NCBI RefSeq assembly: GCF_014197035.1
Contig: NZ_JACIEU010000001.1
Span: 310,001-374,000, forward strand
Direction: 5' to 3'
Length of the DNA stretch: 64,000 nt
DNA from: Sphingobium scionense
Lineage (GTDB): Bacteria > Pseudomonadota > Alphaproteobacteria > Sphingomonadales > Sphingomonadaceae
The notes beneath the pieces were generated by a model that was not told the origin of the DNA, searched no databases, and saw only the letters and a list, made by a program, of their open reading frames with translations. Shown piece after piece: positions 15,176 through 25,021 of this stretch. Both the position numbers and the translations under genes were made by a program. Each line of letters begins with the position of its first letter. The first letter of the stretch is position 1.

Positions 15176-16228
15176 CTAAGCCCGCACCTCCCCGGCCGGG
15201 GCCAGTTCGATCGCGTCATAGCCCTTCCAGCGATAGAAGAGCGCACTGGCGATCCAGCAGGCGATGAACAGGCCGATGATCGCGAAGCCCAGATCGTTGA
15301 AATGCTCGCCCAGCGTGGCGGCGACATCCCAGATGCCGCCACTTAGCCCCAGCTTGTCGCCGAGCAGCGCCAGCGTCTCGATCGTACCGATGCCGATCGC
15401 CACCGCCGCCGACAGGGCGGTGATGACGATATTATAGTAGAGCTTGCGCAGCGGCTTCACGAACGCCCATTGATAGGCGCCCATCATCAGCATGCCGTCG
15501 ACCGTGTCGACCAGCGCCATGCCGGCGGCGAACAGCAAGGGCAGCACCAGCACCGGCCCCAGCGCAAAGCCGTCGCTCGCCTGCGCGGCGGAGAGGCCAA
15601 GGATCGCCACTTCGGTCGCGGTGTCGAAACCCAGGCCAAAGAGGAAGCCGAGCGGCGCCATCTGCCAGGGGCGCGAGATCAGGCGGAAGACCGGACGGAA
15701 CAGGCGCGACAGCGGCCCACGCCCGCCGGTCAGCATGTCGAGATCCGCCTCGACATAGCTGCCGCCCGCCTGCACCCGGCGGAAGGTCGCCCAGACCTGG
15801 CGCAGAATCACAAGGTTCATGATCGCGATGGCGAACAGGAAGGTGGCGGAAATCAGCGTCGCCACCACGCCCCCGGCGGCACGGAACCGCTCCAGCCCGG
15901 CGAGCGCGCTGACCGCATAGGCGAGGCCCAGCGCCGCGATCAGCACGATCGCGCTATGGCCGATCGCGAACCACAGGCCCACGGTCAGCGGCCGCTGCCC
16001 ATCCTGCATCAGCTTGCGCGTCACATTGTCGATCGCGGCAATATGATCAGCATCGACCGCGTGGCGCAGGCCAAGGCCCCAGGCGAGCAGGGCCGTGCCC
16101 ATCATCACCGGCCGGTCGCCGAACAGGGCGAAGGCCCAGCCCCAGACGGCCAGATTGGCAAGGACGAGCGCCGCGATCAGCGGCACGCTGCGTCGCCGAA
16201 GCGACGCCTGCAAAGGGGTGGCAGTCAT
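15176..16228 (-). CDS. NiCoT-family nickel/cobalt permease
   Basis: A 350-residue inner-membrane transporter of the HoxN/NixA/NhlF (NiCoT) family. The signature RHAVDADHIAAIDN is present near residue 60, along with a second family motif LGFDTATEVAIL near residue 205 and about eight hydrophobic segments. Selectivity for Ni or Co cannot be settled from these motifs, but the gene is the last of an operon led by a cobalamin riboswitch, which points to cobalt uptake for B12 synthesis. Its start overlaps the stop of the PepSY gene by four bases (ATGA), indicating translational coupling. Confidence 0.93.
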   Translation of the reverse strand: MTATPLQASLRRRSVPLIAALVLANLAVWGWAFALFGDRPVMMGTALLAWGLGLRHAVDADHIAAIDNVTRKLMQDGQRPLTVGLWFAIGHSAIVLIAALGLAYAVSALAGLERFRAAGGVVATLISATFLFAIAIMNLVILRQVWATFRRVQAGGSYVEADLDMLTGGRGPLSRLFRPVFRLISRPWQMAPLGFLFGLGFDTATEVAILGLSAAQASDGFALGPVLVLPLLFAAGMALVDTVDGMLMMGAYQWAFVKPLRKLYYNIVITALSAAVAIGIGTIETLALLGDKLGLSGGIWDVAATLGEHFNDLGFAIIGLFIACWIASALFYRWKGYDAIELAPAGEVRA

Positions 16229-17724
16229 GCGGTTTCTCCGATCAGGGGCCGTAGGGCGCGGGCGCGCCGACGGTGATTGCGGACGCGGCGCAGATCACGC
16301 CGCAGTTTGGAAAGGCCCATCCATGTCCCGGTCCCGCAAACGAGCGTGACCATGGCGAGCAGCGGCAGGACGATCAGATCCCACCAGGGACGGGTACGCA
16401 GCAGCGGGAAATCAAGCCGGTGCAGCCCGTCCTGCAGCCAGCGGAAGGCCCGGCCATTGCGGTCGAAGGCGCGGATCAGGCGCCCCGATGCCGGATCGAC
16501 ATAAAGACGCGTTGCCTGGTCATCGGCCAGGATGACGCGCCACACCGGCAGGGCGATGCTCGCCTTGTGGCCATAATAATAGGCGTCTTCTTGGCCCAGC
16601 AGCTCGATCGAACCGATCGCCGGACCATCATGCAGCGCCGCGCGCAGGCCCGCTTCGGACAAAGCGGCAGGCCGGCCAGCCGCGTCGAAGCGCTGCGCCT
16701 TGCCAGCCCGATCGATCGCCACCAGATGGACGGCACCGGCAAAGGGCACCACCTCCAGCCGGACGACGCCCGTCGGCAAGGCAGGCAGCGCCGCGATCCC
16801 CCGGCGCGCATCGGCCCAGGCGAAATCGCCGTTCAGCCGCTGGCGCTGCGTCATCATCGCCTCGCTATCCAGCAGCCCCCAGGGGTTCATCGACAACAGC
16901 CCGCTCGCCACCCAGGTCAGCGTCACTATGCCGAAGAAGAGCCCGGCCATATGATGCCACCACCACAGGCCGCGATAGGGCGATCCGATGCCGCCATCGC
17001 GGCGACGGCGCAGCCGGGCGATGCCGACCCACAGGCCGGTGATCGTCAGGAAGCAGCCGATCAGCGAGGTCCAGATGACGACCTGACTCCACAGCGCGCC
17101 ATCCTGCCGCAGGATCGTGGGATAGAGCCAGTGCGGCACCGCGCCGAGCCAGCCCCAGAAGCGCTGGAAGCGGGTGGTCAGTTGCACCACTTCCCCGCTC
17201 CTGCCCGAGACATAGGCCTGCGTCCCCGCTCCGTCGGCATAATCGACGCGGTAGAGTGGCGCGTTGCGGCGGAAGGTCTGGACCGTCCACTGGTCCATCT
17301 CCGTCTGCGCGATGCGCTCCGGCGGTCCGGCAATGGCGCTGTTGCGGCCAAACTCGGTCGCGATCCTGTGGATATTTTGCGGATCGAGCTGTTCGACCGG
17401 CTGGCCCGACGCCCAGTCATGGGTGCCGGCGGACACCCGCATCTGCGGGATGGTCCGCGTCGGATCGAACGCGGGTGTCACCCGCAGCACGGGCCGCCCC
17501 GCCATCATCTCGATCCGGGCGGCGGACAGCATCATGGCATCGGGCAATATCTCCGCCTGCCCCGGTGACAGGTTGAGGGGCGTGAGCCCCCCAAGCTGCG
17601 CGGCCGGTGTCAGGCGCGGATAGTCGACATAGAGCATCACGAAGCCGGACAGGCACCACAGCGTCATGACGGCGCCGATGATGATGCCCAGCCAGCGATG
17701 CAGCAGCAGGACCGGCCGCATCAT
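16225..17724 (-). CDS. PepSY-domain transmembrane protein
   Basis: A 499-residue membrane protein of the PepSY-associated TM family. The first helix is LLLHRWLGIIIGAVMTLWCL, the central GLWWWHHMAGLFFG helix carries paired His, and the last helix is near residues 455-475. Periplasmic PepSY-like regions lie between. Relatives next to siderophore receptors are thought to reduce or process the imported metal complex. The ATG at 17724 is chosen because it lies two bases after the receptor stop and leads directly into the first helix; longer starts run back through the receptor. It sits between a BtuB-like receptor and a NiCoT permease under a cobalamin riboswitch. The exact function is unknown. 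Confidence 0.85.
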   Translation of the reverse strand: MMRPVLLLHRWLGIIIGAVMTLWCLSGFVMLYVDYPRLTPAAQLGGLTPLNLSPGQAEILPDAMMLSAARIEMMAGRPVLRVTPAFDPTRTIPQMRVSAGTHDWASGQPVEQLDPQNIHRIATEFGRNSAIAGPPERIAQTEMDQWTVQTFRRNAPLYRVDYADGAGTQAYVSGRSGEVVQLTTRFQRFWGWLGAVPHWLYPTILRQDGALWSQVVIWTSLIGCFLTITGLWVGIARLRRRRDGGIGSPYRGLWWWHHMAGLFFGIVTLTWVASGLLSMNPWGLLDSEAMMTQRQRLNGDFAWADARRGIAALPALPTGVVRLEVVPFAGAVHLVAIDRAGKAQRFDAAGRPAALSEAGLRAALHDGPAIGSIELLGQEDAYYYGHKASIALPVWRVILADDQATRLYVDPASGRLIRAFDRNGRAFRWLQDGLHRLDFPLLRTRPWWDLIVLPLLAMVTLVCGTGTWMGLSKLRRDLRRVRNHRRRARALRPLIGETA

Positions 17725-17726
17725 GG

Positions 17727-19715
17727 TCAGAAACTCAGGCCATAGCTGACCCGCAGCGTGCGCGGCACGCCCCGGTAATAATAGAGGAAGCGGCTGTTGC
17801 TGCCATCCAATACGCCTGCATCGCTGACCGCCGAGCGATAGCCGGTGCTGGCATAATCCTTGTCGAACAGATTCTCGACATTGACGCCGAACCGGTTGCG
17901 CCGCGCCTGGTCCAGCCACAGATGGGCGCCAGCATCGACCACGGCATAATTGCCATAGTTCATCCGGCCAAAGCCCGATGCGGTCGACCAGACATCGCCC
18001 ACCCAATTGGCCGACAGATTGGCGCCGAAGCGGCCGGTCTGCGGCGCATAGACGATCGCGGCGCGGCCATATTGCTCCGGATTGCGATCCCGCTGGACCG
18101 AGCTGCCCTGATTGCGGACACGCGAATATGTGTAGCTGGCTGACAGGCCCCAGCCGCCGGTCAGGTCCGCATTCAGCTCCAGCTCGGCGCCCCTGGCCCG
18201 CACCTTGTCGCTGACGTTGATATAGGTGCCTTCCGGGAAGGCCGGATCGTCATAGGTCGTGTCGATCAGGTCGGTGATGCGCCGGTTGAACCAGGTCGCC
18301 TTCCAGCGGATCGCGCCGCCGGCCAGCGCGCCGCCCAGCGCGGCGTTGAGGTTCAGACTCTCCTCGGGCTTCAGGTTCGGGTTGCCGACCTCGCAACAGG
18401 GATCATTGCCGTAGAGCTGCGAGGCATCGGGCAGCACGAAGGAGGTGCCGCCATTGGCCTCCACGAACAAGGCGTCGCTGACATCATAGCGGCCCGAGAC
18501 GTTCCAGATCGTCTTTTCCGATCCCTTCGCCTTGTTGTAGCGCAGCCCCGCCGCGATCCGCCCCTTGCTCGACAGGTCGTCATTGGTGCGCAGTTGCAGG
18601 ACGCCGGCATGGACCTGTTCGTCGGTCGGCGCGATCAGCAGGACGTCGTCGCGGCCGTTGAAGCTCTGGAAATCATAGCCGATCAGCGTGTCGATGCCGC
18701 GCAGCATGTTGAGCTGCACCACCGCACTGCCGCCATAATCCTGATAGCCCCAGAAGGTACCGGCCGGGTAGATGACCTGCGGCGGCCCCGCTGGCACGGG
18801 GTTGCGGATCTGGACATAGGCGGTCTTCCAGTCGTGGAAATAGCCTTTGAGGAAGAATTGCACGCCATCCTTGCCGGTATAGTCGAGGCGCAGGCTGGCC
18901 ACTTCCTCGTTGCGGTCGTTGCGGCTCTCCTTGGTCCGCGTCGCACTGATATTGTCGAGATCGGCCCTGGTATGCTGGTAGAGCGCGTTGAGGCGCAGGT
19001 CCGGCGCGATGTCATATTGATATTTGATGCCCGCCGACCAGAGATCATAGCCGCGCGCCCGATCGGTGGCGCTGGGCTGCATCACGTCATAGGGGCGATA
19101 GCCGTCCGATTGGCTGCGATTGGCCCAGACCACGAAGCGATGCGGACCGATCGCGCCGCGCAGATAGCCGTCCAGGCTGGTGCCGGCGAAGCTGTCGAGG
19201 CTGGCATTGACCTGGCCGCCCAGATCATCGCTGAAATCGCGGGTGACGACATTGATGACGCCGGCCGCCGCCTGGGTGCCGTAGAACAGGCTTTCGCCCC
19301 CTTTCAGCACCTCAATCCGCTCGATCATGCTGGCGGCCATGGTGTCATTGGGCGACGTGCCGCCATAAAGGCGATTGTTGAGGCGGATGCCGTCCATCGT
19401 CCACAGCACATCCTTGGTGCGCGATCCCTGCAGCGCGATGTCGACATAGCTGAACGGCCCGGACTGCGACCGGATGAACAGGCCCGGCACGGCTTCGAGC
19501 GCGCGGGCGGTGTCGATCGCGGCGGCATCGCGGATCTGCGTGTCGGTGACGATCTCGATGGCATGGCCATAGCGGGAGAGTTGCTGCGGCAGCGTCTCTT
19601 CCAGGCTGGTGCCCGTGACGACGATGCTGTCGCCTTCCCCTTCGTCGGCCAATGCCGGCGATGCGATGGCAAGCGAAAGGGCCAGAGCGACCAGCGAAAC
19701 GATATTGGACTTCAT
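17727..19715 (-). CDS. TonB-dependent receptor, BtuB-like (riboswitch-controlled)
   Basis: A 662-residue outer-membrane receptor. The signal peptide ends at SPALADEG, followed by the TonB-box-like GDSIVVTGT, a compact plug (YVDIALQGSR, MIERIEVLKGGESLFYGTQAAAGVIN) and a barrel ending GLSF. The size and plug resemble BtuB, the cobalamin receptor. The ATG at 19715 is preceded by GGGGGA at good spacing. A cobalamin riboswitch lies about 200 bases upstream on the same strand, which strongly supports a corrinoid or cobalt-related ligand. The paired Cys of NDPCCEV in the barrel is unusual and may form an external disulfide. The gene leads an operon with PepSY and NiCoT genes. Confidence 0.9.
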   Translation of the reverse strand: MKSNIVSLVALALSLAIASPALADEGEGDSIVVTGTSLEETLPQQLSRYGHAIEIVTDTQIRDAAAIDTARALEAVPGLFIRSQSGPFSYVDIALQGSRTKDVLWTMDGIRLNNRLYGGTSPNDTMAASMIERIEVLKGGESLFYGTQAAAGVINVVTRDFSDDLGGQVNASLDSFAGTSLDGYLRGAIGPHRFVVWANRSQSDGYRPYDVMQPSATDRARGYDLWSAGIKYQYDIAPDLRLNALYQHTRADLDNISATRTKESRNDRNEEVASLRLDYTGKDGVQFFLKGYFHDWKTAYVQIRNPVPAGPPQVIYPAGTFWGYQDYGGSAVVQLNMLRGIDTLIGYDFQSFNGRDDVLLIAPTDEQVHAGVLQLRTNDDLSSKGRIAAGLRYNKAKGSEKTIWNVSGRYDVSDALFVEANGGTSFVLPDASQLYGNDPCCEVGNPNLKPEESLNLNAALGGALAGGAIRWKATWFNRRITDLIDTTYDDPAFPEGTYINVSDKVRARGAELELNADLTGGWGLSASYTYSRVRNQGSSVQRDRNPEQYGRAAIVYAPQTGRFGANLSANWVGDVWSTASGFGRMNYGNYAVVDAGAHLWLDQARRNRFGVNVENLFDKDYASTGYRSAVSDAGVLDGSNSRFLYYYRGVPRTLRVSYGLSF

Positions 19716-19915
19716 ATATTCCCCCATCCGGCGCCGCGTTCGACGGGCGGGGGCAACCTTCGCTTGCGGCACGCGCGCGAACGTCCGACACACGCGCCGG
19801 CCGGGCGCCCAAGGGCAACCGACGCGCGTCATCGCAGCGGCCCCAGCCGCTCGTTCGTCGCTCAGACGGAAGTTACCGTGCCGCGGCCATCCCCTGGACC
19901 AAGGCAAGAGCGACC
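19716..19915 (-). other. Leader between riboswitch and receptor start
   Basis: These 200 bases are the expression platform and leader of the receptor mRNA. A short hairpin AGCGGC-TGGG-GCCGCT can form around 19840. The ribosome-binding site GGGGGA lies just before the ATG. No poly-U terminator was seen, so control may act on translation or through Rho; this is inferred. No gene is apparent. Confidence 0.4.
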
Positions 19916-20150
19916 AGACGCCGGCAGGTCTCCTGGCTCACGGGTCATCGCTTGATGCACGGCCTTCCCAGGCCTCGCAGGATTTAGCGTCCGGCCCAGT
20001 GGCTGGCGGATCGGGCATTCTGCCGTCCGCACATGTACATCGCGCTCACCGCTTACAGTTGCAGGGACAGCTGCGGATTTGGACGACACCCTGAATGAGA
20101 GGGCCATCCGCACCGCATTCCCTATTAAGCCCCTTTCGGGACACCGGCGC
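19916..20150 (-). ncRNA. Cobalamin riboswitch
   Basis: Read on the minus strand, the region contains the conserved pieces of the adenosylcobalamin riboswitch in order: CTTAATAGGGAA near 20115-20130, the B12 box AGCTGTCCCTGCAACTGTAA near 20053-20072, CCACTGG near 19998, and GAGCCAGGAGACCTGCC near 19925-19941. The paired ends CGCCGG (5') and CCGGCG (3') can form stem P1. High cobalamin would be expected to repress the downstream receptor-PepSY-NiCoT operon. The boundaries are approximate to about ten bases. Confidence 0.95.
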
Positions 20151-20190
20151 GATCATGATCCCACGCCGTGTGGCGCGGGATCGGCGAGAT

Positions 20191-20218
20191 CGATAATCGA
20201 ATATCAGGCGGGCTGCAA
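20191..20218 (-). promoter_or_regulatory. Possible sigma-70 promoter of the riboswitch operon
   Basis: On the minus strand TTGCAG (20218-20213) and TTATCG (20196-20191) are separated by 16 bases, in the 75-base gap between the copB stop and the riboswitch. Transcription would begin about 35 bases before the aptamer. The -35 matches the consensus at four of six positions and the -10 is weak, so this is a tentative call. Confidence 0.35.
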
Positions 20219-20225
20219 GCGCCTC

Positions 20226-21086
20226 TCAGAACCAGGCGCGCAGGCCGATCACCAGGCTGGTGGCAGAGGCGCGTTCACCGGCGGCACGGGCATAGTCGGC
20301 GGTGTCGCCCAGCTTGCGCTCCCAACGCACGCCGACATAGGGGGCGAATTCGCGGGCGATCTCGTAGCGCAGCCGCAGCCCCAGCTCGATATCGGACGGG
20401 CCGGCGCCGATTCCCAGTTCGGGCACATGCTGCGCCGCCAGATTGAACTCGGCGGCGGGCTGCAGGATCAGCCGCTGGGTGATGCGCTGGTCATAGCTCG
20501 CCTCCAGCCGCAGATGGGCGTCGCCCTTGCTCGACAGGAAGGCTTCGGCCCCGACCTCAAACCAGTAGGGCGCCAGGCCATCGATGCCGATCACCGCATA
20601 GCTACGATCCGGCCCTTCGCCCAGATCCTGCCGCACGCCCGCCTGCAGGTTGAACCAAGGGTCGATCGCCCGGCTGTAGAGCGCCTGCACCTCGGCCCGT
20701 TCGAGCGATCCGCCGAATGTCCCTTCGCCCTCGCTCTTGACCGCGAAGCGGTTGATGTCGCCGCCGATCCAGCCCTCGCCCTCCCAGGCATAGCCGTCCG
20801 CGCCCTTGCCGGCGCGATATTCCAGCCGATCGAGCATCCATTGCGAATAGGTCATGCCGCCCCCTTCCGCGATCATCGCCGTGCGGGCGCGGGCCATGGC
20901 GGCCGGGTCATAGAGCGCGTCGGCGGCATGATCGGTCGGCACTGGCGGCGGCGTGCCCTGCGGGATCGCGGCGTCGATAGCCGGCATTGCATGCCCCATC
21001 GCGCCATGATCCATCTGACTATGGTCCATCGTCTGGGCCTGCACCGGCGCAGCGGCGGCGAGCAGAAGGAATGCGAGCGCCTTCAT
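20226..21086 (-). CDS. copB: Copper resistance protein B
   Basis: A 286-residue outer-membrane copper resistance protein of the CopB/PcoB family. The signal peptide ends at APVQAQ. A His/Met-rich stretch follows (TMDHSQMDHGAMGHAM), then a beta-barrel of about 220 residues beginning GGMTYSQWMLDRLEYR and ending in aromatic LRAWF. CopB is thought to bind or move Cu at the outer membrane together with CopA. Its start overlaps the copA stop by four bases. It is the last gene of the five-gene minus-strand unit that begins with the anti-sigma candidate. Confidence 0.95.
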   Translation of the reverse strand: MKALAFLLLAAAAPVQAQTMDHSQMDHGAMGHAMPAIDAAIPQGTPPPVPTDHAADALYDPAAMARARTAMIAEGGGMTYSQWMLDRLEYRAGKGADGYAWEGEGWIGGDINRFAVKSEGEGTFGGSLERAEVQALYSRAIDPWFNLQAGVRQDLGEGPDRSYAVIGIDGLAPYWFEVGAEAFLSSKGDAHLRLEASYDQRITQRLILQPAAEFNLAAQHVPELGIGAGPSDIELGLRLRYEIAREFAPYVGVRWERKLGDTADYARAAGERASATSLVIGLRAWF

Positions 21087-22822
21087 GCCGCATCCTCCCC
21101 ATGGCGAACCGTCACCACCCGCATCATCCCGGCATGCATGTGCATCAGCATATGGCAGTGGAACGCCCAGTCGCCCAGCGCATCGGCGGTAAGGTCGAAA
21201 CTCAGCTTGCCGCCGGGCAGCACATTCACCGTATGCTTGCGCGGATTATGCGCCGCCTCGCCCGTCACCAGTTCGAAGAAATGGCCGTGCAGATGGATGG
21301 GATGCGGCATCATCGTGTCGTTGATCAGGGTCACGCGCACCCGTTCCATATGCCGGAAGGCGATCGGCTCCGCCCCCTCCGACAGCTTCACCCCATCGAA
21401 CGACCACATATAGCGTTCCATGTTCGCGGTCAGATGGATGTCGAGCGACCGGGTCGGCGTGCGCAGGTCGCTGTTCGGCGTCAGCGACCGCAGATCGGCA
21501 TAGGTCAGCACGCGATGCTCGACATCCTCCAGCCCCGTCGGCCGGTCGGCGGTGCGATCGGCCGGCATCGGCGACAGGGTGGCGACGCCCGGCCCCATTT
21601 TCACGCCCGGCGCGACCGACTTGTCGCGCATCTTCATGGCGTGGCCGCTCATGGCGTCATTGGCCGGCTGGCTGAGGTCGATCACCCCGTCATGACCCAT
21701 GTCCATGCCGCCCATGTCCATGCCCATATCCTTCATGCCCAGCAGCGGCCGGGCGCGCCGGCCCGGCACGGGCGCGGCCATGCCGACCTGCGGCGCCAAG
21801 GTGGCGCGGACCAGGCCGGACCGGTCGATCGCCTCGGCAATCAGCGCATAGGGCTTGGCCTCGCCGGGCTGGACGATCACGTCATAGGTTTCGGCAATGC
21901 CGATCTGGAACTCGTCGGTCTCGACCGGCTGGACATCCTGCCCGTCGCACTGGACCATAGTCATCGGCAGGCCGGGCAGGCGAACATTGAAATTGGTCAT
22001 CGTCGACGCGTTGATGATGCGCAGCCGCACCCGCTCGCCCGGCGCAAACAGGCCGGTCCAGTTTTCGGCCGTGCCCATGCCGTTCACCAGATAGCTGTAG
22101 ACCGCGCCGGTGACGTCGGAAATATCGGTCGGGTCCATCCGCATCGCGCCCCAGTCGATCCGGTCCTTGAGGCCCTGATCCTTCCGCGCCAGCAACCCCG
22201 CCAGCGTCTGGCGCTGCATGTTGTAATAGCCGCCCATCTGCTTGAGCCGTTGCAGCAGCCTGTGCGGATGAACCGAACTCCAGTCGGCGAGCAGGATCAC
22301 ATGCTCCCGGTCATAGGCCACCGGATCGGGGCCGGCCGGATCGATGATGATCGGCCCATAAAGGCCCATCGCCTCCTGCATGCCCGAATGGCTGTGATAC
22401 CAGTAGGTGCCCGCCTGCCGCACCGGGAAGCGATAAATGAAGGTCTCGCCCGGCGCGATACCGGGGAAGCTGATGCCCGGCACGCCATCCATCTGGAAGG
22501 GCAGGATCAGCCCGTGCCAGTGGATCGAACTATCCTCCTTCAGCCGGTTGGTGACGGCGATGTTGACATCCTGCCCCTCGCGCAGGCGGATGAGCGGGGC
22601 GGGCGTGCCGCCATTGACGCTGATCGCATGGGCCGATCGGCCGCCGGTCGCAAAATGCCCATCGCCGATGCGGAGCGCGATCGTCTCGCCCGACAGCGCG
22701 CCCTGAGCGGCTCCATGCGTGCCTGTGTCGGCCCAACCGGGCAGTGCCTGCGCCAGTGCAAGCGCGGCGCCGCCCCGGATCAGGCTGCGGCGGTCGAGAG
22801 GAAGGGAAGGCAGATCGGTCAT
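21083..22822 (-). CDS. copA: Multicopper oxidase CopA
   Basis: A 579-residue periplasmic multicopper oxidase of the CopA/PcoA family, which oxidises Cu(I) and sequesters copper. The N-terminus has a Tat signal (DRRSLIRGG). The four copper-ligand clusters are visible: HWHG near residue 101, YWYHSHSGM near 142, HPIHLHGHF near 508 and the Cys-containing HCHMLMHMHAGM near 557. A Met-rich insert (GMKDMGMDMGGMDMGHDG, about residues 365-382) is typical of the family and binds copper. It starts six bases after the ECF sigma gene, so it is expressed with its own regulator. Confidence 0.96.
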   Translation of the reverse strand: MTDLPSLPLDRRSLIRGGAALALAQALPGWADTGTHGAAQGALSGETIALRIGDGHFATGGRSAHAISVNGGTPAPLIRLREGQDVNIAVTNRLKEDSSIHWHGLILPFQMDGVPGISFPGIAPGETFIYRFPVRQAGTYWYHSHSGMQEAMGLYGPIIIDPAGPDPVAYDREHVILLADWSSVHPHRLLQRLKQMGGYYNMQRQTLAGLLARKDQGLKDRIDWGAMRMDPTDISDVTGAVYSYLVNGMGTAENWTGLFAPGERVRLRIINASTMTNFNVRLPGLPMTMVQCDGQDVQPVETDEFQIGIAETYDVIVQPGEAKPYALIAEAIDRSGLVRATLAPQVGMAAPVPGRRARPLLGMKDMGMDMGGMDMGHDGVIDLSQPANDAMSGHAMKMRDKSVAPGVKMGPGVATLSPMPADRTADRPTGLEDVEHRVLTYADLRSLTPNSDLRTPTRSLDIHLTANMERYMWSFDGVKLSEGAEPIAFRHMERVRVTLINDTMMPHPIHLHGHFFELVTGEAAHNPRKHTVNVLPGGKLSFDLTADALGDWAFHCHMLMHMHAGMMRVVTVRHGEDAA

Positions 22823-22828
22823 GCTGCT

Positions 22829-23404
22829 CTATACGCGCGCCGCGTCGCTTTCCCTCAACATCTCCTGCAATTGCCGGCGGGCGCGGTAGAGGCGGGTTTC
22901 CACCGCCTTTTCGGTGACGCCCAATATCTGCGCGACCTCGGCCTGGGTCATGCCTTCGATCCCGCGCAACAGGATAACGTCGCGCAAGGAAACCGGCAGC
23001 GCCGCCACCGCCGCCTCGATCCGGGCGACGCCGGCACGGGACTGGGCCGCCACTTCCGGGTCGGGCGCCGCGTCGGCGACATAGGCCGCATCCTCGATCG
23101 GCCGGGCGAAACTGAAGAAGCGGCGGACGGCACGGCGGCGCGCCCAGTCATGGCATTTGTTGATCGTGATCCGCGCGATCCAGCCGCGAAAGGGCCGGCG
23201 TCCATCATAGCGGGCAAGCGAGGCAAAGGCGGCGACGAAGCTTTCCTGCACGATGTCCATTGCCGCATCGGCATCGCCGACATGGCCGCGCGCCAGCCGA
23301 TAGACGGCATCGCGGTGCCGCCGCATCAGCGCGCCATAGGCCGCCTGCCGCCCGGCCAGCGCCTGCGCCGCCAGACTGGCATCATCATGTTCGTCGGCTA
23401 TCAC
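22829..23404 (-). CDS. ECF sigma factor, CnrH-like
   Basis: A 191-residue extracytoplasmic-function sigma factor. Region 2 spans about residues 20-90 (MDIVQESFVAAF, then FRGWIARITINKCHDWARR) and region 4 about 125-185 (MTQAEVAQILGVTEKAVETRLYRARRQL). The start is GTG at 23404, overlapping the metal-sensor stop (GTGA). It lies directly downstream of a CnrX-type sensor and a small membrane protein, the same set as cnrYXH, and upstream of copA. It probably directs transcription of this operon and of copC from the paired promoters at 24133-24205. The promoter assignment is inferred from sequence. Confidence 0.93.
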   Translation of the reverse strand: MIADEHDDASLAAQALAGRQAAYGALMRRHRDAVYRLARGHVGDADAAMDIVQESFVAAFASLARYDGRRPFRGWIARITINKCHDWARRRAVRRFFSFARPIEDAAYVADAAPDPEVAAQSRAGVARIEAAVAALPVSLRDVILLRGIEGMTQAEVAQILGVTEKAVETRLYRARRQLQEMLRESDAARV

Positions 23405-23835
23405 CCGACAGGCTGGGTCAGCGCCTTGACCACCGCCGCGTCGAACAGCGCAGCCTGATCGGGGCGCAGCACACCGCGCATCGCGAAGATGTGCTTCAAT
23501 GTTTCCTTCTGCAATTCCCCCATCGCTTGGTGCGACCGGTCGACCGCCTGGGCGACGCGCGGGCCATAGCCATGTTCGGCGGCGATCGCCGCGGCCAGCC
23601 GCTGGTTGTCGGCGCGCATTTCTGCATCCAACGCCGCCTTGCGCTGGGCGAAGGCGGCTTCCAGATCGGCGATGCGCTGCTTCTGGCCGGCGTCCAGGGT
23701 CAGCCGATCATGGAGCAGGGCATGGACCTCATTCTCCACCGGCGGCGCGGGCGCCAGCCAGGTGCGCGCCACCAGCACGGCGGCCAGCGCCGCGGCAAAG
23801 GCGACCAGCGCCACCAGCCAATAGCGTTTGCCCAT
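23401..23835 (-). CDS. Periplasmic metal sensor, CnrX-like
   Basis: A 144-residue protein with one N-terminal membrane anchor (about residues 6-28) and a periplasmic helical domain. The five metal ligands known in CnrX (H42, H46, E63, H119, M123) all have counterparts at a constant offset of four: H38 and H42 (VHALLHD), E59 (LEAAFAQRK), H115 and M119 (LKHIFAMR). This supports a real metal-sensing site. In the Cnr system metal binding releases the sigma factor from the membrane anti-sigma factor. It overlaps the sigma gene by four bases and follows the 88-residue membrane protein by two bases. Whether it senses Cu, Ni or Co is not known. Confidence 0.9.
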   Translation of the reverse strand: MGKRYWLVALVAFAAALAAVLVARTWLAPAPPVENEVHALLHDRLTLDAGQKQRIADLEAAFAQRKAALDAEMRADNQRLAAAIAAEHGYGPRVAQAVDRSHQAMGELQKETLKHIFAMRGVLRPDQAALFDAAVVKALTQPVG

Positions 23836-23837
23836 GT

Positions 23838-24104
23838 CTATCGCTCCAGCAGGCGCGAGGGCGCATAATCGGACATGCCGATCAGCAGCGGGCCGGGCGC
23901 GGCCTGCGCCGGCTGCGCGGGCACGGTGCTGCCGATCCAGCCGATGCCGATCGCCATCACGCCGGCCAGCATCAGGCTGCGCCGCGCGACGCTGCGTTCG
24001 CGGCGGCGGTCCAGCCCCTGCATCACTGCCTCCTCCAGCCCGTCGAAGCGCGCCGTCGCCGGCGCGGCGCGCAGCCCGGCCAGCCTGTCGTCCAGATCGT
24101 CCAT
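23838..24104 (-). CDS. Small membrane protein, probable anti-sigma factor (CnrY-like)
   Basis: An 88-residue protein with a charged N-terminal half of about 42 residues, one transmembrane segment (about 43-61, SLMLAGVMAIGIGWIG) and a short periplasmic tail. Size, topology and position match CnrY, whose cytosolic N-terminus binds CnrH. Sequence similarity itself is too weak to see by eye. The ATG at 24104 has AGGAAGG upstream and lies about 20 bases from the ECF-type promoter. It is the first gene of the minus-strand metal operon. Anti-sigma function is inferred from context. Confidence 0.75.
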   Translation of the reverse strand: MDDLDDRLAGLRAAPATARFDGLEEAVMQGLDRRRERSVARRSLMLAGVMAIGIGWIGSTVPAQPAQAAPGPLLIGMSDYAPSRLLER

Positions 24105-24132
24105 CGTCCCGTCCTTCCTGTCCTGCCTGACG

Positions 24133-24158
24133 ATACGCATCCGGCCGGCCCATCCCTC
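24133..24158 (-). promoter_or_regulatory. ECF-type promoter of the anti-sigma/sensor/sigma/copAB operon
   Basis: On the minus strand GAGGGATG (24158-24151) and ATGCGTAT (24140-24133) are separated by exactly 10 bases. The same two blocks with the same spacing occur on the plus strand at 24180-24205 facing copC. Such a match in a divergent gap next to an ECF sigma gene is what an autoregulated ECF promoter pair looks like. The start codon lies about 28 bases beyond the -10 block. Confidence 0.72.
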
Positions 24159-24179
24159 GCACAAAATAGCGTGAGGGGT

Positions 24180-24205
24180 GAGGGATGCGACAGGACAATG
24201 CGTAT
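24180..24205 (+). promoter_or_regulatory. ECF-type promoter of copC
   Basis: GAGGGATG (24180-24187) and ATGCGTAT (24198-24205) are separated by 10 bases, identical in blocks and spacing to the minus-strand site at 24133-24158. The copC start codon is 35 bases downstream of the -10 block, with GGAGA as ribosome-binding site. Use by the neighbouring ECF sigma factor is inferred. Confidence 0.72.
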
Positions 24206-24240
24206 TCCCCTGCAAGACGCGCATTTTTTCGGAGACATCC

Positions 24241-24636
24241 ATGCCCCGCCCACCCCTGTTCAAACAATCCCTGATCGCCGCAGCCTTTGCCCTCATCGCT
24301 CTGCCCGGCGCCGCCTTCGCCAGGCCGCAGCTCGTTGCGGCCAGTCCCGCCGCCAATGCCAGCGTCGCCAAGCCGACCCGGCTGACCCTGGGCTTTTCCG
24401 AAGCGCTCCAGGCCGATCATAGCAGCATCACCCTCACCATGACCGGCATGCCGGGCATGGCCGATCATCCGCCGATGCCGATCAAGGGCTTCACCACCGC
24501 CGCGGCCGCCGACGGCAAGGGTCTGGTCATCACCCTGCCCCGCGCCCTGCCGACCGGCAGCTACGACCTCAACTGGACCGTGATGGGCAACGACCATCAG
24601 CCGGTCAGCGGCACATATGGTTTCAAGGTGCGCTGA
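24241..24636 (+). CDS. copC: Copper resistance protein CopC
   Basis: A 131-residue periplasmic copper-binding protein of the CopC/YobA family with a signal peptide ending AAFA and an immunoglobulin-like fold. The hallmarks are LVAASPAANASV after cleavage, LTLGFSEAL, and the C-terminal GNDHQPVSGTYGFKV with the conserved Asp-His. The N-terminal His that usually follows cleavage is replaced (ARPQLV), so the Cu(II) site is altered; a Met/His loop GMPGMADHPPM may compensate. The ATG at 24241 is preceded by GGAGA. It is transcribed divergently from the copAB operon and no copD follows. Confidence 0.92.
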   Translation: MPRPPLFKQSLIAAAFALIALPGAAFARPQLVAASPAANASVAKPTRLTLGFSEALQADHSSITLTMTGMPGMADHPPMPIKGFTTAAAADGKGLVITLPRALPTGSYDLNWTVMGNDHQPVSGTYGFKVR

Positions 24637-24790
24637 AGGGGCAAATGCGCGCCCACGAGCAGGTCAAATCTGACGCTGAGAGCGGCTTTGGCCTCAATCG
24701 AGGGCGGGCATTATGTCCAATGTTCGCCACCGCTCCAGCAACGTACAACAAATCAATAGCTTCAAGAATTACACCGGAATAATTTGGGTG

Positions 24791-25021
24791 ATGGATTCCT
24801 TTCCTGTCATATTCATAATATTCAAGATTGCGGTCCTCGGCACCGGCATGTTCTTTGCCGTAAAATGGCATCATGATCAGGACAGGAAGGCACGGAAAGG
24901 CGATATTCTGACCGCCATTGGCAAGATAAGCGCGATCCTGGCGCTATTGCTGATCGGCCTGCTATTCGCCACCTTCAAGCTTGCCAGCTTGCTTGGCCTG
25001 GACATGCAATTGTCCCAATAA
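24791..25021 (+). CDS. Small two-helix membrane protein, unknown
   Basis: A 76-residue protein with two hydrophobic helices (about residues 5-22 and 45-68) joined by a basic loop (KWHHDQDRKARKGD). No family was recognised. The start at 24791 leads straight into the first helix; an in-frame start at 24713 would add 26 polar residues. The ribosome-binding site is weak. Base composition is clearly lower in GC than the neighbours, which suggests recent acquisition. It lies downstream of copC on the same strand after 154 bases, but a role in metal resistance is only a guess. Confidence 0.55.
   Translation: MDSFPVIFIIFKIAVLGTGMFFAVKWHHDQDRKARKGDILTAIGKISAILALLLIGLLFATFKLASLLGLDMQLSQ

Follow-up and report, generated by a model that had tools for sequence, protein, structure and literature searches.

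The window, by which we mean the whole 64-kb stretch of DNA that was analysed, carries on its minus strand a promoter-like site followed by genes for an 88-residue membrane protein, a sensor, an ECF sigma factor, CopA and CopB (Table 1). The first three genes are tightly spaced, with a short gap between the anti-sigma candidate and sensor genes and with the GTG start of the sigma gene overlapping the sensor stop, and their order, anti-sigma, sensor and sigma, is the CnrYXH-type arrangement. The initial annotation had read the order and topology of cnrY-cnrX-cnrH at 22829-24104, and this was borne out: genes for a CnrY-like anti-sigma candidate, a CnrX-type sensor and a CnrH-like sigma factor lie at that place on the minus strand. 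The E-values, the predicted fold and the synteny argue against a chance resemblance to CnrYXH. No cnrCBA or nccCBA efflux genes follow the module in the window, where copA and copB stand instead, and no cnrB or cnrC match was obtained there. For CopC, the score against NF033814 was 92.7 bits, slightly below the cut-off of 95.

Table 1 Features of the copper-linked CnrYXH-type locus (positions in the window)
Feature	Position	Strand	Evidence or remarks
copB, copper resistance protein B	20226..21086	-	PF05275, E 6.6e-92
copA, copper resistance multicopper oxidase	21083..22822	-	TIGR01480, 781 bits (cut-off 479)
ECF sigma factor, CnrH-like, 191 aa	22829..23404	-	PDB 4cxf, E 2e-32; Sigma70_r2 and r4_2
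Promoter-like site GAGGG-N15-GCGTA, 3' end of sigma gene, ends 10 bases before copA start codon	22832..22856	-	Motif searches
Periplasmic metal sensor, CnrX fold, 144 aa	23401..23835	-	CnrX ligands H38, H42, E59, H115, M119; also H102, M105
CnrY-like anti-sigma candidate, 88 aa	23838..24104	-	CnrY profile comparison, conserved columns; hydrophobic segment ~43-61, C-terminal APSRLL
Promoter-like site GAGGG-N15-GCGTA before anti-sigma gene	24134..24158	-	Motif searches
Promoter-like site GAGGG-N15-GCGTA before copC, back to back with the anti-sigma site	24180..24204	+	Motif searches
copC, periplasmic copper-binding protein, divergent	24241..24636	+	PF04234, E 1e-15

Some further genes flank this core. 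After copC lies a gene for a 102-aa membrane-type protein (24713-25021, plus strand) without a family match above cut-off; copD, which adjoins copC in most of the 80 seed-scan loci described below, was not seen in the window locus. On the other side, a cobalamin riboswitch (19906-20163, minus strand, 102 bits) heads genes for a TonB-type receptor, a PepSY_TM protein and a NicO-family protein (15176-20163). The receptor gene lies directly behind copB, and its best NCBIfam match is BtuB-like, below cut-off. It is likely that these genes form a cobalamin/cobalt uptake group.

All seven PDB sequence matches of the sensor were CnrX (entry name CnrR; best 3zg1, 1.5e-18) or NccX (4clv, 7.1e-17), and the protein also matched Pfam Metal_resist (2.8e-18). 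CnrX shares 36.5% identity with the window sensor across 72% of its length; in the PDB searches, CnrX and one NccX entry were the only solved structures in this sensor group. The sensor has a predicted N-terminal membrane helix. Its AlphaFold model (built from a four-sequence alignment; pLDDT 81) was used for a Foldseek search, in which CnrX and NccX took ranks 1-15 of 429 matches, and residues 33-141 of the model superposed on residues 37-145 of CnrX with a Z score of 12.7 and 1.8 Å over 108 residues. The structure prediction against CnrX proposed in the initial annotation thus agreed with it. The assignment is nevertheless carried by the sequence match, because that structural comparison also gives Z scores of up to about 10 to unrelated helical proteins. 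The alignment also upheld the earlier claim that the five CnrX ligands recur in the sensor at a constant offset, pairing H38 with H42, H42 with H46, E59 with E63, H115 with H119 and M119 with M123 of CnrX.

The best of the 29 PDB sequence matches to the sigma factor was CnrH. Its region 4 match stops at 179-183 of 191 residues, and it contains one Cys. For the 88-aa protein, NCBIfam returned nothing and Pfam nothing above cut-off. However, when a profile of its relatives was compared with a CnrY profile (hhalign, these two profiles alone), the two aligned end to end with an E-value of 2.8e-6 and a probability of 88. The relatives of the 88-aa protein share with CnrY an acidic/leucine pattern at the N-terminus and [AS]PxxLL at the C-terminus (P82 in 113/115 relatives, L86 in 112/115); their genes were chosen by script in 141 of 150 modules. 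These likenesses make the 88-aa protein a candidate anti-sigma factor of the CnrY type.

The CnrYXH-like module in the window is a member of a widespread copper-linked branch and not a one-off. Four such sensors were found in its own genome (5.96 Mb, 102 contigs), the other three being 61-63% identical to the window sensor. All four modules sit with copper genes, for example copA, copB, copC and copD; the module on contig C42 also adjoins a P-type ATPase gene and that on C51 a DUF305 gene, both checked against Pfam/NCBIfam. Gene pictures of the contigs were drawn with a simple GC-frame script, a subset of the proteins being checked by Pfam/NCBIfam and the others named by reading and tblastn. 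Among 62 sensors found by profile searches, 50 had a cop gene within 6 kb, seven had cnrCBA downstream, three had another copper marker and two had no recognised metal gene. These 62 represent part of the places listed by the searches (of 75 places, 20 newly fetched, five others and four of the genome itself; of 108, 17 new and 11 earlier; of six, three new and one earlier). Under a looser rule, 136 of 150 sensors were linked to cop genes. A scan of genome contigs with a seed pattern gave a similar picture for 80 of its 210 confirmed loci: a cop gene lay within 6 kb in 79/80, copA within 3 kb downstream in 71/80 and a divergent copC in 74/80. The titles of these 80 name Sphingomonadales or broader groups only. 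All 22 sensors from other genomes in an even phylum sample divided into 18 with a cop gene, one with another copper marker, one with none and two with cnrCBA.

The profile search found a relative in 17 of 398 phylum-sample genomes and in 60 of 149 genomes of the same family (the genome of the window counted in both), and a search with a CnrX profile in 92 of 199 genomes of another family, whose sensors mark it as Caulobacter-like. In the family of a Cupriavidus-like genome (G255), a relative occurred in 6/200 genomes, and the only one among 300 genomes of the order sample was G255 itself. One genome (G351) holds both cop-type and cnr-type sensors. At the start of another contig, L165 (235-1758), two identical CnrX-like sensors stand back to back about 0.65 kb apart and lack cop genes in the surrounding 6 kb; the pair may stem from duplication or from the assembly. 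A 'periplasmic heavy metal sensor' is mentioned among Sphingobium metal genes (PMC7355620), and a passage on C. crescentus describes two RND operons as being without nearby regulatory genes (PMC3637150). No account of a CnrX-like copper relay was recognised in a full-text literature search, which did not cover the large ECF classification. A large reclassification of ECF sigma factors reportedly appeared in Nucleic Acids Research in 2021, and the copper-linked CnrYXH group may be listed in the main ECF classification.

Two residues besides the five ligands separate the cop-linked from the cnr-linked sensors. Of the profile-found sensors, 50 distinct ones have a cop gene within 6 kb; H102, M105, E59 and H115 were each present in all 50 of these, H42 and M119 in 49, H38 in 48 and H88 in 40. 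The five distinct profile-found sensors associated with cnrCBA all kept the five ligands, and all five had E at 102, A at 105 and P at 88. Over all loci, H102 and M105 occurred together in 121/121 distinct cop sensors and in 0/6 cnr sensors, a count in which 65 of the 121 came from the seed scan and already contained the pair. Since the seed pattern, VD[RQ]SH[QG]AM, spans H102 and M105, the 80 seed-scan loci are biased for them, and the claim on these residues therefore rests on the profile-found loci. H102 and M105 are conserved in the copper branch no less strictly than the CnrX ligands, and they remain in three sensors without H38, H42 or M119. In the sensor model, residues 102, 105, 115 and 119 share one helix (92-122). 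E72 was considered as a third ligand opposite H102 and rejected; E occupies this position in 103/121 distinct cop sensors overall but only in 32/50 profile-found ones.

We further placed the sigma factors in a tree (134 distinct sequences thinned to 93, with two outgroup rows; a further outgroup sequence, a fragment of 110 aa, grouped within the family and was excluded from the final tree). The cnr sigmas, those of the Caulobacter-like genomes included, formed one clade with support of 100/99, so the cop/cnr residue pattern represents one split and not many independent ones. The cnr comparison set comprises six distinct sensors from two lineages; given so few sensors and a single cnr clade, the difference between E/A and H102/M105 could reflect descent and not metal choice. 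We did not retain a nesting of the Ni/Co branch within the copper branch: the tree places it there, but monophyly of the copper sigmas was not rejected (p-AU 0.37) with an outgroup of two rows.

The motif GAGGG-N15-GCGTA occurs exactly three times in the window, all at this locus. Its two sites in the divergent gap belong to two exact back-to-back copies of GAGGGATG-N10-ATGCGTAT; no further copy of the latter was found in the window at up to three mismatches, yet 20 of 100 shuffles reached two such loose matches. When 113 distinct regions upstream of cop loci were searched for spaced word pairs without a preset pattern, GAGGG-N15-GCGTA came first (87/113) and its mirror second (75/113), and the top count of any pair after one letter-shuffle was four. 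The motif was also present in 87 of 103 distinct gaps between the sigma gene and copA (reversed control, 0). The exact form was missing from 26/113 regions before the anti-sigma gene and from 16/103 sigma-copA gaps. In 60 regions with both divergent copies, the distance between them varied from 2 to 60 bases. It is likely, judging from this conservation, that GAGGG-N15-GCGTA is the promoter used by the sigma factor. Non-RpoD promoters, cnrYp and cnrCp, have been reported before cnrY and cnrC (PMC9045368).

The initial annotation had taken the module to be co-transcribed with copA and copB and divergent from copC. The divergence of copC stands, and copAB indeed come next on the same strand; co-transcription, however, tells only part of the story, since copA is directly preceded by a further promoter-like site of this type, at the 3' end of the sigma gene. 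The close spacing of its -10-like box to the copA start recurs in many of the relatives inspected. With the box so near the start codon, copA may be transcribed with little or no leader.

The whole genome contains 24 exact GAGGG-N15-GCGTA sites, compared with eight for the reversed pattern. Nineteen of them belong to the window locus or are found near copper-type genes on contigs C42, C48, C51, C68 and C33, and for the other five, on C6, C13 (two), C36 and C71, no copper gene was recognised nearby. On C42, C48 and C51, the motif stands between the sigma gene and copA and also on the copC side. Before the anti-sigma gene it is exact on C48 only, C42 having a near match and C51 none. On C51, further sites mark the start of the DUF305 gene and precede a cytochrome-c-like gene that lies upstream of the module; on C48 they precede genes for a 251-aa membrane protein and an FAD-oxidoreductase-like protein. 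On C68 (L017 469-984, 3315-6167, 6474-6978), the motif precedes two DUF411-type genes that closely resemble each other and, in the divergent direction, a TonB receptor gene accompanied by two PepSY-like proteins; it is possible that the DUF411-type and TonB receptor genes are further members of the copper regulon. C33 (L297 2106-5973) has a divergent motif pair. One side encodes an FAD oxidoreductase, a P-type ATPase in which YHS and heavy-metal domains occur, and a regulator of the MerR type; the other encodes a 127-aa protein.

The spacing of the two boxes differs between cop loci and part of the cnr loci. At cop loci, GAGGG-N16-CGTA was found in 96/119 regions after the sigma gene and in 89/114 before the anti-sigma gene, as opposed to 1 and 3 for the N17 form. 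GAGGG-N17-CGTA followed the sigma gene in all six Cupriavidus-type cnr modules (four distinct regions) and preceded the anti-sigma gene in one. Three Caulobacter-like cnr modules lacked it both after the sigma and before the anti-sigma gene, and N17 spacing was accordingly rejected as a mark of every Ni/Co locus. Nor did we retain the notion that the spacing separates the two sigmas within one cell, because the Caulobacter-like modules without N17 include the genome with both sensor types.

Taken together, these comparisons allow a tentative proposal, which we put forward as possible though rather doubtful: the textbook Ni/Co CnrYXH system might be a minor branch of a copper-sensing family that is mainly alphaproteobacterial, in which metal choice would be set by H102-x-x-M105 (E and A in the Ni/Co branch) beside an unchanged five-ligand site and, at Cupriavidus-type loci at least, a distance of 17 instead of 16 bases from GAGGG to CGTA would separate the Ni/Co sigma.

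For the window locus itself, we are fairly confident that the best reading is a copper-dedicated transmembrane switch of the CnrYXH type. Such a relay accounts best for the locus, since the parts of CnrYXH have their counterparts here, and copper is proposed as the signal since most relatives have copper genes beside them. CnrY is described as embracing sigma domains 2 and 4, and cobalt or nickel on CnrX is thought to switch CnrY and so free CnrH (PMC4598750). By analogy, the 88-aa membrane protein would keep the sigma factor at the inner membrane face when copper is not in excess. Periplasmic copper would bind the helical-hairpin sensor through the five CnrX-type ligands, possibly with H102 and M105 as well, and the sensor would act on the anti-sigma candidate, perhaps through the conserved C-terminal [AS]PxxLL, to release the sigma factor. 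Free sigma may then start transcription at GAGGG-N15-GCGTA before copC, its own genes and copA(B), and the motif layout would give three linked outputs, namely copC, copAB and an increase of the relay itself. The sigma factor would probably also serve similar sites that lie by other copper genes of this genome. The reading draws on homology, predicted fold, ligand conservation, linkage and motif conservation, and from these we infer the identity of the metal, the mode of release, the use of the promoter and the role of H102/M105.

The ligands by themselves do not fix the metal, because CnrX, although described as a Co/Ni sensor (PMC4598750), has a copper-bound crystal form (title of 3epv). For the same reason, metal binding alone would be a weak test of the signal. 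A version of the sensor tuned to copper was one of two possibilities raised in the initial annotation, and it gains support from the linkage to cop genes (136/150 and 50/62), from the residues that separate cop from cnr sensors and from the motif at copper genes.

A broad periplasmic sensor for Cu, Ag, Zn, Cd and other metals, with the copper genes as chance outputs, is unlikely. Pumps of the CusA-like type handle Cu and Ag, and two relatives (L103 and L266) adjoin such pumps, which would suit a broad signal; so would the CnrX fold, which is promiscuous in vitro, the entry titles naming structures with Ni, Co, Zn and Cu. However, the neighbours are mostly of the cop type, and the H102/M105 pair is confined to the copper branch.

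The second possibility in the initial annotation, a sensor that is still Ni/Co-specific and couples Ni/Co exposure to copper defence, appears very improbable and was not sustained. Although all five CnrX ligands are retained, positions 88, 102 and 105 carry other residues in the Ni/Co-associated sensors, whereas the four sensors of this genome all have H102/M105 and sit with copper genes; no Cnr-type sensor was found in the genome, and tblastn of the stretches searched around the four modules gave no match to cnrB or cnrC. The genome does encode four CnrA-like pumps (53-59% identity), but the 24 exact N15 sites all lie away from these four closest pumps, and the exact N17 pattern, with the spacing of CnrH, is absent from the genome (0, against four for the reversed control). 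A link through the NicO-family nickel-transport gene (15176-16228), on the same strand about 4 kb past copB, was likewise rejected: this gene belongs to the group headed by the cobalamin riboswitch, and in a search of 147 other stretches, short ones among them, NicO and the TonB gene did not come up again. Least probable of all is that the back-to-back motif is the operator of another copper regulator (for example of the CopR or MerR type) and not a sigma promoter, since the inverted repeat made by the two GAGGG boxes, and the MerR-type genes adjoining some loci, have to be set against a single copy between the sigma gene and copA, a two-box spacing that is fixed while the distance between divergent copies is not, and the same boxes at Cupriavidus-type cnr loci.

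A copper-dedicated switch of this kind would name a copper regulator for the cop operons of many sphingomonads and Caulobacter-like bacteria. The family offers a set of sensors that keep five ligands and differ at H102/M105 and in their neighbours, so that metal selectivity could be tested by a two-residue swap, and its related sigmas with nearly identical promoters are material for the study of promoter choice.

Several known systems bear comparison with the window locus. CopRS places copper-resistance genes under the control of periplasmic copper, and CusRS is described in the same way, as we propose for the window. CopRS and CusRS are two-component systems, whereas the relay in the window would consist of sensor, anti-sigma and sigma; by reading, no histidine kinase or response regulator was seen in 17727-24636. 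CorE of Myxococcus xanthus is likewise a copper-linked ECF sigma with a multicopper oxidase among its described targets (PMC10141476). However, CorE is reported to bind copper itself through a Cys-rich C-terminal extension (PMC10141476), which the window sigma, ending after region 4 and with one Cys, does not have. SigF-NrsF of Caulobacter crescentus is also a copper-induced pair of ECF sigma and anti-sigma (PMC8224329). It is set apart by the description of its regulon, which names DUF692, DoxX and methionine-sulfoxide-repair-type genes and not pcoAB (PMC8224329). The closest system is CnrYXH of Cupriavidus metallidurans pMOL28 (Ni/Co), together with NccYXH, with which the window module shares gene order, sensor fold, the five ligands, a CnrH-like sigma and a CnrY-like anti-sigma candidate, as well as the same two boxes after the sigma gene. 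It differs from CnrYXH in a spacing that is one base shorter, in having copCAB in place of cnrCBA as neighbours, in H102/M105 in place of E/A and mostly H88 in place of P, and in an additional divergent site toward copC.
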